The notes below the pieces were generated by a model that was not told where the DNA came from, ran no database searches, and worked only from the letters and a program-made list of their open reading frames with translations. Source: Desulfurobacteriaceae bacterium (lineage in GTDB: Bacteria > Aquificota > Aquificia > Desulfurobacteriales > Desulfurobacteriaceae). From it: a DNA stretch of 32,429 nt. The stretch covers positions 1-32,429 of the forward strand of contig JALSNF010000044.1 in NCBI GenBank assembly GCA_026987115.1, read 5' to 3'. The translations under genes and the position numbers were made by a program. Positions within the stretch are counted from its first letter, which is position 1, and each line of letters begins with the position of its first letter. Below, piece by piece: positions 4,145-6,987 of the stretch.

Positions 4145-5173
4145 TTACCTGTCTTCCATAGTAAATAGGCGTCCGTCGTAAGCCTCAAACTCATAGAAAT
4201 TCCCTAACTTCTTGAACCTTTGAGGCAAGAGAGGAACCTTCCCGTACCCTCCCGGACCGTCAACTGCGTAGTAGGGAATGGCAAGGGGAGAAAGCCTCTT
4301 AAAGAGCTCCCTTAAAATATCAAGCCCTTTAGTTATAGAGGTTGAAAAGTGCATAACTCCCTTTACAGGGTCGCAGTGGAAGAGGTAGTAGGGACGAACC
4401 TTTATCTTCTGGAGCTCCCTAAGGAGCTTTTCAATAACTCCAACAGAATCGTTTACTCCTTTAAGGAGAACTGCTTGGTTGTTAACGGGAATTCCCCTTT
4501 TTAAAAGGGCCAAAACTGCCTCTTTAGAAAGAGGGGTAATTTCGTCTGGGTGGTTAAAGTGAGTGTTAACCCAAACCTTTTGAGCCTTCTCTAAAAGGGA
4601 AAGGAGCTCTGGCTCTAAAACTCTCTCAGGCCAAACTACCGGAAGTCTGGTTCCTATCCTTACAACTTCAACGTGGTCTATAGACTTTAAACCAATAAGC
4701 AACCTTTCCAGCTTCTCAGCAGGGATAAGAAGAGGTTCCCCTCCTGAGATAAGAACATCTCTTACTTTGGGGTTATCGGCTATGTACTTTAAGCACCTTT
4801 CAATCTCCCTTTCAGTTATGTAAAAAACCCCCTTCTTCCAATTCCTCTTCCTCATACAGTATCTACACAGAACGGGACAGTAATTGGTAGTTATTATTAA
4901 AACTCTATCTGGATACCTGTGAGTAAGGAGAGGAACTTTAAAGTCCCTCTCTTCCCTTAATGGGTCTTCTTCCCCTCTACCTTGAACGCTTGGGTCTATC
5001 TCTAAAAGAGAAGGAAGAAGCATTTTCCTAACTGCCAAACTCTTTCTGGCAAGCTCTAAATAGTAAACGGTAGAAGAGAAAGGATAGACTTTAACTACCT
5101 CTTTAAAGGCCCTCTCTTCTTCTTCTGTTAAAGGGAAGAGCTCCTTAACTTCCTTTAAACTCTTTACTATCAA
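4145..5173 (-). CDS. KamA-family radical SAM aminomutase (lysine 2,3-aminomutase-like)
   Basis: A 342-aa radical SAM, PLP-dependent aminomutase of the KamA/AblA/EpmB family. Seen: HRYPDRV at 85-91; the cluster motif CPVLCRYC with C99, C103 and C106; the SAM-binding GGEPL; and GGYGKVP near the C terminus, whose Lys312 aligns with the PLP lysine of lysine 2,3-aminomutase (GGGGKTP). The two Asp that hold the lysine side chain in that enzyme appear conserved (HCDPVKG and AVDGPGG), whereas glutamate aminomutases change them, so a lysine substrate, free or on a protein, is favoured. It lacks the C-terminal extension of ~416-aa lysine aminomutases and has EpmB length. The start is TTG, overlapping the upstream TGA (TTGA), so it is translationally coupled to the coiled-coil gene. 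No acetyltransferase or EF-P gene is nearby. Confidence 0.85.
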   Translation of the reverse strand: MIVKSLKEVKELFPLTEEEERAFKEVVKVYPFSSTVYYLELARKSLAVRKMLLPSLLEIDPSVQGRGEEDPLREERDFKVPLLTHRYPDRVLIITTNYCPVLCRYCMRKRNWKKGVFYITEREIERCLKYIADNPKVRDVLISGGEPLLIPAEKLERLLIGLKSIDHVEVVRIGTRLPVVWPERVLEPELLSLLEKAQKVWVNTHFNHPDEITPLSKEAVLALLKRGIPVNNQAVLLKGVNDSVGVIEKLLRELQKIKVRPYYLFHCDPVKGVMHFSTSITKGLDILRELFKRLSPLAIPYYAVDGPGGYGKVPLLPQRFKKLGNFYEFEAYDGRLFTMEDR

Positions 5174-5922
5174 CTAAAACTCCAGTTGCTTGCATCAAGC
5201 TCTTGATAGATAGAGTCCCTCTGACCAAACCTTACAAACTTAATAACATCGTCCTCAAGCTTTAAGTAAACTGCCCTATACTCTCCGTAAGGAGAGGTAA
5301 TCCTGAGCCTGTAAATGTCGTGTTTTGAATCCCTCTTTAAGAGCTTTGAAGTAGTCTCTATCCTATCAAGGGCCGAGATAAAACCGTTAAGGAGAAACGG
5401 CCTTACTGAAACTTCCTTTACTACATCCTTTCTAAACCTTTTTGAAAAGAGAACCTTTAACCTCTTCTTACCTGCAGTAAACTCTGAAAGGGAGTTTAGG
5501 GCAACCTCTATAAAGAGCTCCACCTTCGGTTTTGGAACTTCCCTAGCCTTAAGGCTCTCTATTTGGGTCTCCTTCTCCTTAATCTCACCTTTTAACCTCG
5601 CAACCTCTTCTTTTAAGACTTTAATCTTGTCTTTAAAGTCCTCAATTTCCTTAAGCTCTTCTTCTCTCCTCTTTAGCTCTTCCTCTCTCTTCCTGTACCC
5701 GTCAAGCTCCTCCCTTAACTCTACTACTTCCCTAATAAGCTCTTTTATTTTCCTATCCTTGCCCTTTAACTTCTCAGAAAGGCTCTTTACCTTTAAAAGG
5801 AGCTCCTCTCTACTTTCTACCCTCTGAACCCTTTTCCGCTTCTGAGCTTTAGGCAGAGTTTGCCTCATTTCCTTTTCAGCCTGAAGGAAAAACTCTTCAA
5901 TATCCCTAAACCCTTTTTCCAT
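5170..5922 (-). CDS. Coiled-coil protein with C-terminal RelE/ParE-like domain
   Basis: Function unknown. I place the start at the ATG at 5922 (250 aa), which has AGGAG eight bases upstream. An ATG 15 codons earlier would overlap the divergent gene and lacks such a site. Residues about 37-129 are strongly charged and heptad-like (long E/K/R/L coiled coil). The C-terminal ~55 residues contain HDIYRLRI, GEYRAVYLKL and DDVIKFVRFGQRDSIYQEL, resembling the Y-R-x-R ... Y-R-x-x-Y ... HR-x-x-x-Y core of RelE/ParE/YoeB-fold proteins. No antitoxin is adjacent, so it is more likely a repurposed or regulatory fold than a free toxin. It is coupled to the KamA-family gene by a 3-4 bp overlap, implying a joint role. 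The RelE assignment is pattern recognition only. Confidence 0.75.
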   Translation of the reverse strand: MEKGFRDIEEFFLQAEKEMRQTLPKAQKRKRVQRVESREELLLKVKSLSEKLKGKDRKIKELIREVVELREELDGYRKREEELKRREEELKEIEDFKDKIKVLKEEVARLKGEIKEKETQIESLKAREVPKPKVELFIEVALNSLSEFTAGKKRLKVLFSKRFRKDVVKEVSVRPFLLNGFISALDRIETTSKLLKRDSKHDIYRLRITSPYGEYRAVYLKLEDDVIKFVRFGQRDSIYQELDASNWSFS

Positions 5923-5949
5923 TGCAAGCTCTCCTAAAGTTGATATACT
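5922..5949 (+). promoter_or_regulatory. Promoter of the metallo-beta-lactamase-fold gene, leaderless type
   Basis: TTGCAA at 5922-5927, a 16-bp spacer, TATACT at 5944-5949, then six bases to ATG 5956. The expected start point coincides with the ATG. There is no AGGAGG. The -35 overlaps the start codon of the divergent coiled-coil gene. Confidence 0.5.
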
Positions 5950-5955
5950 TGGAAA

Positions 5956-6711
5956 ATGAAGCTCCAAGTAGAAAATTTAGGTCACTCCACCTTTAGGGTA
6001 AAGTTTGATTGTTTGGAAATCCTAACTGACCCTTTTTTAACAGAAAGTGCCGGAGGAATTAAGAGGGTAGTTCCTCCACCATTGAAGCCTGAAGAACTAT
6101 CGCCAGACATAGTTTTAATTTCCCACGCACATTACGACCACTTAGACTTAAAAACACTTAAAAGACTTAAAGGGGATTTCACCACTTTAACCCCTTTAGG
6201 ATGCAGGGAAATAATAAAGAAAGGGAAAATTATTGAACTTAAAGACTTTGAAACAGTCTCCATCAAAGGGGCAAAGATTACCAAAATCCCAGCAATCCAC
6301 AACAAGGGAAGAAGCCCACTTCACATGAAAACTGAGGTAGGAGGGTACATAGTTGAGTTTAAAGGAGTTAAACTCCTCTTTGCCGGAGATACAGCCTTTT
6401 CAGAAAAACTCTACAGCCTCTGGAAAGAGAAAGGAGGAGAGATAAAGTTTGCGTTTTTGCCAATCGGCGGGTTTATGCCCTTTTTCAGGAAGTTTCACCA
6501 AACGCCAGAAGAAGCTCTAAAAGGATTTAAGATACTTGGAGCAGAAACTCTCATACCAATTCACTTTGGAACTTGGCACCTTATCCCTTACTACGCAAAG
6601 GGGGAAAGGGCCCTTGAAAGGCTTTTAGCCTACAGCTATATTTGCTCTTTAAGGGAAAAGGTTAAGGAGCTCCTACCGGGAGAGAAGAGGAGCTTTGACA
6701 TAGAAACCTAA
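5956..6711 (+). CDS. Metallo-beta-lactamase-fold hydrolase, NAPE-PLD/UlaG-like
   Basis: A 251-aa metal-dependent hydrolase. Metal-site residues visible: HAHYDH at 57-62, H115 (IPAIHNKG), D145 in FAGDTAFS, and H203 in IPIHFGTW. The block HQTPEEALKGF (181-191) followed by GAETLIPIHFGTW is characteristic of the N-acylphosphatidylethanolamine phospholipase D-like and UlaG-like branch (COG2220). No signal peptide; cytosolic. The substrate cannot be read from the sequence; a phosphodiester or lactone is possible. The family begins with NLGHSTF a few residues from the start, supporting ATG 5956 despite the missing ribosome site. The gene is probably transcribed separately from the secreted-protein gene behind it, which has its own -35. 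Confidence 0.85.
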   Translation: MKLQVENLGHSTFRVKFDCLEILTDPFLTESAGGIKRVVPPPLKPEELSPDIVLISHAHYDHLDLKTLKRLKGDFTTLTPLGCREIIKKGKIIELKDFETVSIKGAKITKIPAIHNKGRSPLHMKTEVGGYIVEFKGVKLLFAGDTAFSEKLYSLWKEKGGEIKFAFLPIGGFMPFFRKFHQTPEEALKGFKILGAETLIPIHFGTWHLIPYYAKGERALERLLAYSYICSLREKVKELLPGEKRSFDIET

Positions 6712-6732: not shown

Positions 6733-6987
6733 ATGAAACTTAAAAGCTTAATAGTTGGAATTATAATCATAACTGCTGCCGTTTGTGGAGCACCCCAAGA
6801 AGGTTATTCCTACTCCTTTACCGTAGTTCAGTGTCAAGTTCAGCAGGTAAAAGCTCCAAAAGAAGAAAGGGAAAAGAGCCCCTTTGAAAGAAAGGAAAGG
6901 AAAAAAGAGAAAAGGAAAATAAGAGAAAAGGAACCATTTAGAGATATAGCCTTTAAAAAGGGAGCTCCCACCAGAGCCTCTCCTTAA
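6733..6987 (+). CDS. Small secreted, highly charged hypothetical protein
   Basis: 84 aa, unrecognised. Residues 1-26 form a signal peptide (MKLK, a run of Ile/Val/Leu, then AAVCGA, or a later site near SYS). The rest is dominated by Lys, Arg and Glu, with repeated KERK/REKE-like clusters at about 45-70, so the mature part is probably disordered. The Cys at 18 is not in a convincing lipobox; a second Cys occurs at about 34 in VQCQVQQV. Bounded by its own promoter upstream and the secA ribosome site 50 bp downstream. It could be a periplasmic adaptor or filler; nothing in the sequence gives a function. Real translation is supported by the signal peptide and by the gap it fills. Confidence 0.6.
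   Translation: MKLKSLIVGIIIITAAVCGAPQEGYSYSFTVVQCQVQQVKAPKEEREKSPFERKERKKEKRKIREKEPFRDIAFKKGAPTRASP

Follow-up and report, generated by a model that had tools for sequence, protein, structure and literature searches.

A coiled-coil protein with a RelE-fold domain is the gene partner of a lysine 2,3-aminomutase homologue in one order of the Aquificota

Proteins of the RelE fold follow a beta-alpha-alpha-four-beta-strand order with an optional C-terminal helix, and the toxins of RelBE modules are small, stand-alone proteins of about 90 aa. We take K52, K54, R61, R81 and Y87 to be the catalytic residues of E. coli RelE. To our knowledge, RelE-fold proteins domesticated outside toxin-antitoxin and defence modules have rarely been described. 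A RelE-like stretch within a larger protein is found in the CRISPR-associated Cami1 (PDB 8PHB/8PHJ; chain residues about 260-364 match the domain studied here), which was solved bound to the 70S ribosome according to the structure title and which we take to be a signal-activated RelE fusion. KamA-family enzymes have a described role in the EpmB/YjeK-EpmA/YjeA-EF-P pathway, which combines such an enzyme, lacking the C-terminal domain of lysine 2,3-aminomutase (LAM), with an EpmA-like ligase and an EF-P carrying K34. We know of no description of this pathway that includes a coiled-coil/RelE-fold partner. One survey distinguishes YjeK/EpmB from LAM by the missing C-terminal part (section 6), counts scattered Aquificales among the genomes with both yjeA and yjeK, and reports that in 9% of its 200 genomes the three pathway genes all lie apart (PMC2821294).

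The locus described here lies in a window of 32,429 nt (contig JALSNF010000044.1, assembly GCA_026987115.1) from a member of the Desulfurobacteriaceae (order Desulfurobacteriales, phylum Aquificota), a family of bacteria from hot vents. Its features are listed below in window coordinates.

4145-5173, minus strand: kamA, coding for a KamA-family radical SAM lysine 2,3-aminomutase homologue of 342 aa (profile and structure-sequence alignment, active-site residues)
5170-5922, minus strand: gene of the 250-aa coiled-coil/RelE-fold protein, ATG start at 5922 (ORF reading; orthologues found)
5170-5173, minus strand: TTGA, in which the stop of the coiled-coil gene overlaps the TTG start of kamA (sequence reading)
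5180-5184, minus strand: TGGAG spanning W247 near the end of the coding sequence, a likely kamA ribosome-binding site 6 nt from the TTG start
5191-5463, minus strand: RelE-fold domain, residues 154-244 (profile matches, profile-profile comparison, predicted structure)
5206-5208, minus strand: Y239, at the position of RelE Y87 (alignment and conservation, as for the next four)
5218-5220, minus strand: R235, at the position of RelE R81
5275-5277, minus strand: R216, at the position of RelE R61
5302-5304, minus strand: R207, at the position of RelE K54
5308-5310, minus strand: R205, at the position of E. coli RelE K52
5479-5532, minus strand: extra helix, residues 131-148, KVELFIEVALNS, densely conserved (conservation and predicted structure)
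5542-5811, minus strand: coiled coil, residues 38-127, with the conserved start LNEKLKGKDRKIKEL (predicted helix and heptad periodicity)
5881-5922, minus strand: conserved N-terminal motif KGFxDIExxFL, residues 1-14 (21-sequence comparison)
5931-5935, minus strand: AGGAG, Shine-Dalgarno-like, 8 nt upstream of the ATG of the coiled-coil gene (sequence reading)

A first-pass annotation of the window, made from the letters alone, had described this ORF as a RelE/ParE-like domain at the end of a coiled coil of about 90 residues, and the ORF and all three C-terminal strings that it quoted (HDIYRLRI, GEYRAVYLKL and a third) are present. The coiled coil holds as well. A helix is predicted for residues 38-127, with pLDDT 80-92 over residues 41-120, and the hydrophobic 3.5-residue periodicity of the 20 Desulfurobacteriaceae proteins was equalled by only 1 of 5000 shuffles; a single-register heptad test of the window's protein by itself failed to reach significance (540/2000 shuffles as good). 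Its first turns, LNEKLKGKDRKIKEL, are conserved across the family, whose members measure 227-250 aa with the coiled coil included. Ahead of it lies a variable linker and, at the N-terminus, the motif in which D7, E9, F12 and L13 are invariant among the 21 family sequences. The extra helix that follows the coiled coil presumably falls outside the RelE fold.

Several lines of sequence comparison bear on the C-terminal domain. Against the domain alone, Pfam ParE_toxin gives E 0.0014 over its full profile (1-89/89), and 20 of the 21 family members match this profile at E 1 or better. Both NCBIfam RelE_StbE and the PHROG 'RelE-like toxin' family are matched by 11 of 21. Since the Pfam score (19.6 bits, gathering score 23) and the NCBIfam score (18.1 vs. 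27.9 bits) lie under the curated cut-offs, the domain is, as judged by sequence, a remote homologue of the RelE/ParE superfamily and not a standard member. When the family profile was compared with solved structures, the best sequence was that of M. jannaschii RelE (E 0.018). A profile-profile comparison with 17 RelE sequences scored 41.9 (probability 92.7%) over 46 aligned columns, which correspond to the C-terminal half of the domain, while the controls reached a maximum of 22.9 over 200 column shuffles and 12.3 with the reversed target; the RelE pattern exceeds chance. The 17 sequences were E. coli RelE and 16 toxin rows taken from Aquificota loci by HMM search; one protein occurs twice (L138, L155), two rows are partial (L146, L150), and two loci with two toxins each contribute only the second.

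The predicted structure of the full-length protein (mean pLDDT 77.7, pTM 0.44, blocks of 72-86 across residues 151-240) places strands at 156-159, 192-197, 202-210, 213-223 and 226-234 and helices at 161-173, 176-186 and 235-244, an element order that equals the RelE topology. Judged by their titles, the 50 matches listed in a VIA search were all toxins from toxin-antitoxin pairs, Cami1 or H. pylori HP0892/HP0894; we assume that the less known toxins among them belong to the RelE/ParE superfamily. The best of those listed was YafQ (Z 10.1, rmsd 2.3 over 81 residues), and the list included M. jannaschii RelE 3BPQ (Z 9.4, rmsd 2.1 over 77 residues, 27% identity) and ribosome-bound RelE (Z 8.9). 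Foldseek returned nothing below E 0.001 with the full-length model. The domain-only prediction was poor (pLDDT 60.8), with a Foldseek list that mixed NTF2-like folds with RelE, and we therefore relied on the full-length model. Three family libraries, the shuffle-controlled profile comparison and the predicted structure agree on a RelE fold, so that the similarity on which the first-pass annotation had staked its reading was found.

The positions of E. coli RelE were mapped through the 17-RelE profile alignment, and the residue letters were checked. The set R/R/R/R/Y occupies the five catalytic positions in 20/20 Desulfurobacteriaceae proteins, and the identical set occurs in 8 of the 16 rows of free RelE-like toxins of Aquificota (one duplicate, two incomplete). 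RNase activity is possible in this family. In the homologue from the sister family (genome G022), all five have changed, to I, E, A, K and L, although its domain keeps 22 of 39 positions that are invariant in the Desulfurobacteriaceae; all five would be lost from among such positions with a probability of 0.011, a value calculated post hoc on a single genome. The check for catalytic residues that had been suggested thus shows a complete R/R/R/R/Y set in one family and a changed one in the single homologue from its sister. As the kamA pair is kept in G022, the pairing is independent of the five residues in that lineage and, in this one genome, outlives the catalytic set. The loss of the basic residues of the head there means that RNA binding by the head may not be general.

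The gene was found in 20 of 22 genomes of Desulfurobacteriaceae and in one of two genomes of the sister family, as a single copy by profile search. The sister-family genome without it is 64% complete. Of the two Desulfurobacteriaceae lacking it, one (G012) is 62% complete and has a kamA truncated at the end of a contig, and in the other (G021, 83% complete) neither the coiled-coil gene nor kamA was found. A profile search of 112 other Aquificota genomes revealed no orthologue of the coiled-coil/RelE-fold protein, so the pair, for which a comparison across the Aquificota had been proposed, is confined within that phylum to one order. Matches in G059 and G037 and a second one in G020 were judged to be coiled-coil or chance similarity, and one in G108 (E 0.009) to be chance; none was counted as an orthologue. 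A wider, pattern-based genome search that covered close relatives yielded 8 loci, from Desulfurobacteriaceae, Thermovibrio or Desulfurobacterium. No match was obtained by tblastn among 72,556 plasmid and 50,697 phage records, by which we ruled out cargo of a mobile element. A role in defence was likewise rejected: PADLOC gave 18 weak matches for the full protein, nearly all on the coiled coil, and one with the RelE-fold domain alone (E 0.015). In G000, no Pfam ParE_toxin gene was found at E 0.001, a search that misses the coiled-coil/RelE-fold protein too. The gene is one of a single order and not a mobile toxin-antitoxin module.

As the first-pass annotation had stated, no antitoxin gene adjoins the coiled-coil gene: its neighbours are kamA on one side and, 33 nt away on the other, a divergent gene for a metallo-beta-lactamase-fold protein. 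An ordinary RelBE module is rejected on the basis of this lack, the family-wide presence and the overlap with kamA. The protein shares its fold and sequence pattern with RelE/ParE toxins (E. coli RelE, 3BPQ, YafQ, HP0892/HP0894) and, in the Desulfurobacteriaceae, the catalytic-type positions. Unlike these toxins, it has its RelE domain preceded by a coiled coil and an additional helix, lacks an antitoxin gene, occurs throughout one order and gave no hit among the plasmid and phage records searched. It also differs from Cami1, which is cA4-bound by its title, in that a coiled coil but no sensor domain could be found, and in its pairing with kamA. Literature searches whose scope lay outside most subscription journals gave no match for Cami1 or for a RelE domain with a coiled coil or without an antitoxin, and no pair of RelE with an aminomutase or KamA among the matches listed.

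The pairing with kamA is close and constant. The TTGA overlap was read correctly at the outset, with TTG as the kamA start, and the pair, whose absence from close relatives was to count against it, recurs throughout them: kamA lies directly 3' of the coiled-coil gene in 21/21 genomes that have the gene. A start/stop overlap of 1, 4 or 8 nt is available in 20/20 Desulfurobacteriaceae genomes (20/21 overall), the overlapping kamA start codons being mostly TTG; in G022 the genes are separated by a gap of 29 nt. W247 is near-invariant and encoded within a TGGAR element that is present among the closing codons in 20/20 Desulfurobacteriaceae and absent from G022 with its non-overlapping genes. Since this element occupies the place expected of a kamA ribosome-binding site, is found family-wide and is lost in G022, the conservation of the protein's tail may be partly at the RNA level. 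We compared 8 neighbourhoods over 18 kb and found no third gene common to all. Beyond the pair, nothing in the G022 neighbourhood recurs in the other seven over this span, and the g7 genomes have no gene in common with L033 and L039; with L037 they have three, about 6-8 kb away, plus weak paralogue matches. The pairing is thus kept also where the flanking genes differ.

KamA itself aligns with lysine 2,3-aminomutase 2A5H over residues 29-343 of 416 (E 9e-86), without the C-terminal multimerization domain of LAM. C99, C103, C106, R108, D268, D305 and K312 are invariant in 21/21 sequences; we take them to include the three cluster cysteines, the PLP lysine (K312) and the lysine-binding aspartates (D268 and D305). 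Among NCBIfam models LAM scores best (336.8 bits), and EpmB reaches 192.8 against a cut-off of 369.3. The genome encodes an EpmA-like ORF that scores 275.7 bits with genX (cut-off 286.9) vs. 169.0 with the best lysine-tRNA ligase model, and an EF-P with a modifiable lysine of the K34 type. Short genX-type ORFs (311-364 aa) occur in at least 20 of 22 Desulfurobacteriaceae genomes among the matches listed, which included none of EpmA type from G004, G015 and G022. EF-P was found in 127 of 136 genomes, and its loop reads PGKGQAF in 30/30 loci inspected, of which 13 are from Desulfurobacteriaceae. In the window's assembly, efp (contig C36) and the EpmA-like gene both lie off the kamA contig (C44). 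No AblB scored over the cut-off in 23 genomes (15 of Desulfurobacteriaceae), nine of which gave weak matches. With an EpmA-like ligase, an EF-P with a modifiable lysine and no AblB over the cut-off, KamA probably supplies beta-lysine for EF-P, and from these sequences we infer that EF-P beta-lysylation would be its best use. The set resembles the EpmB-EpmA-EF-P pathway in having a KamA-family enzyme that lacks the C-terminal domain of LAM, an EpmA-like ligase and EF-P K34, and differs from it in a KamA that is nearer to LAM by score and in the constant coiled-coil/RelE-fold gene partner. A literature search on EpmB, EF-P and Aquifex, again outside most subscription journals, returned B. subtilis work only.

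The KamA sequences of other Aquificota carry an N-terminal WQxxNR segment in all 17 loci examined, and none of these has a coiled-coil neighbour; the segment is found in 0 of 21 KamA of the order that has the partner, with a degenerate trace in those of L037 and L052. One KamA alignment left out L122, L124 and L128, whose N-termini were read separately. In G022, KamA is 36% and EF-P 75% identical to its counterpart in the window's genome, and the KamA branch is longer. Ratios of KamA to EF-P distances, which cover the genomes with EF-P loci at hand, are about 4-8 in the outgroup and about 5-10 in the Desulfurobacteriaceae; the G022 branch alone stands out. Accelerated evolution of KamA was dismissed as proof of co-evolution, being unsupported in general with outgroup ratios like those of the Desulfurobacteriaceae. 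With KamA evolving rapidly in the outgroup as well, the case for co-evolution is weak outside G022. At the G022 locus (L050, 8199-9928), KamA and the coiled-coil protein have both diverged strikingly, unlike the EF-P of that genome, and the five catalytic-type positions have changed.

What emerges is a RelE-fold domain taken from a toxin-antitoxin setting and fixed, in one order, as the constant companion of a lysine aminomutase gene. This suggests a one-time toxin that has been recruited for protein synthesis. Our preferred explanation, to which we give a probability of roughly 0.4, is a domesticated, antitoxin-free RelE-fold accessory factor of KamA and EF-P beta-lysylation that contacts the ribosome or RNA. 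The early suggestions of a ribosome-associated regulator or a partner of the modified substrate become more plausible because the EpmA-like ligase and K34-type EF-P make KamA a likely supplier of beta-lysine. In such a mechanism the coiled coil would form an oligomer, a parallel dimer being the simplest guess, and the basic residues conserved in the RelE-fold heads would let these dock to the ribosome or another RNA; either the N-terminal motif or the extra helix could recruit a partner, most simply KamA, and the overlapping genes might set the expression ratio. That KamA feeds EF-P, that the coiled-coil protein binds KamA and that the head binds the ribosome or RNA are steps we infer. A sharper version, that the tethered head brings KamA to the ribosome or else cuts mRNA on ribosomes lacking modified EF-P, is rather doubtful. 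Against an accessory factor speak the best score of KamA as a LAM, the EpmA-like ORF slightly under its cut-off and the location of efp and the EpmA-like gene elsewhere, as does the presumed operation of the pathway in other Aquificota that have no coiled-coil protein.

The accessory factor has two main rivals, each of them unlikely. The protein could be an active ribosome-dependent A-site mRNA endonuclease without an antitoxin, acting for instance on stalled ribosomes and restrained by its own coiled coil, its extra helix or KamA. The complete R/R/R/R/Y set of the Desulfurobacteriaceae, shared with half of the free-toxin rows, would fit such an enzyme, as would the presence of Cami1, another larger RelE-containing protein solved with the 70S ribosome, among the structural matches; however, an always-present RNase would demand tight control, the arginines that stand here in place of K52 and K54 of E. 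coli RelE make activity uncertain, and G022 keeps the kamA pairing with all five residues changed (0.011, post hoc, one genome). The same retention of the pair, in a genome whose KamA is unusually divergent, favours the other rival, a protein that serves KamA alone as a scaffold or structural subunit, replaces its missing N-terminal segment and uses the RelE fold as a protein-binding module with no role in RNA. The complementary distribution of WQxxNR (17/17 without the partner, 0/21 with it) points the same way, but the catalytic and basic set is fully kept in the Desulfurobacteriaceae, L037 and L052 retain their trace of the segment, and co-acceleration is backed by G022 only, KamA being fast in the outgroup as well.

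It is improbable that the two genes are merely co-transcribed, sharing an operon by history and serving unrelated processes. Operons can persist historically in small genomes, and a few rearrangements could explain part of the flank differences, given the three genes shared by the g7 genomes and L037; yet the pair is the sole thing common to G022 and the other seven neighbourhoods, and the genes overlap, with kamA starts that are mostly non-ATG. Least credible is that the beta-lysine (or another beta-amino acid) made by KamA serves a purpose other than EF-P, with the coiled-coil protein tied to that use. The profile scores favour LAM over EpmB, and the genome carries a further KamA-family gene, which shows that such enzymes diversify here, but no AblB passed the cut-off in the 23 genomes, and an EpmA-like ligase and K34-type EF-P are present.

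The domestication looks deep, with the gene in nearly every genome of the family, and the order offers a natural experiment: one family retains a complete catalytic set, all of this set is altered in a genome of the sister family, and the pair is kept in both. If the link to KamA is physical, the protein would be an unsuspected accessory factor for EF-P beta-lysylation, and cultured thermophiles of the genera Desulfurobacterium and Thermovibrio make that link testable. Should the sharper version, with its tethered head, be true, a toxin fold would have been recruited as a subunit devoted to modifying a translation factor, and lysine chemistry would be coupled to ribosome rescue.

Some further observations concern the window and its genome. 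The second KamA-family protein (401 aa; L131, 5829-7034, contig C54) has C-R in place of C-D at the lysine-binding position and lacks the VD motif, so that its substrate is probably not lysine; its gene adjoins a nitroreductase-like ORF, presumably of the SagB/ThcOx type. In the window, the metallo-beta-lactamase-fold gene occupies 5956-6711 on the plus strand, and the 33 nt between its start codon and the divergent one of the coiled-coil gene (5922-5956) leave little room for two promoters. Between this metallo-hydrolase gene and secA lies a small, very Lys/Glu-rich ORF (6733-6987) with a signal-like N-terminus.
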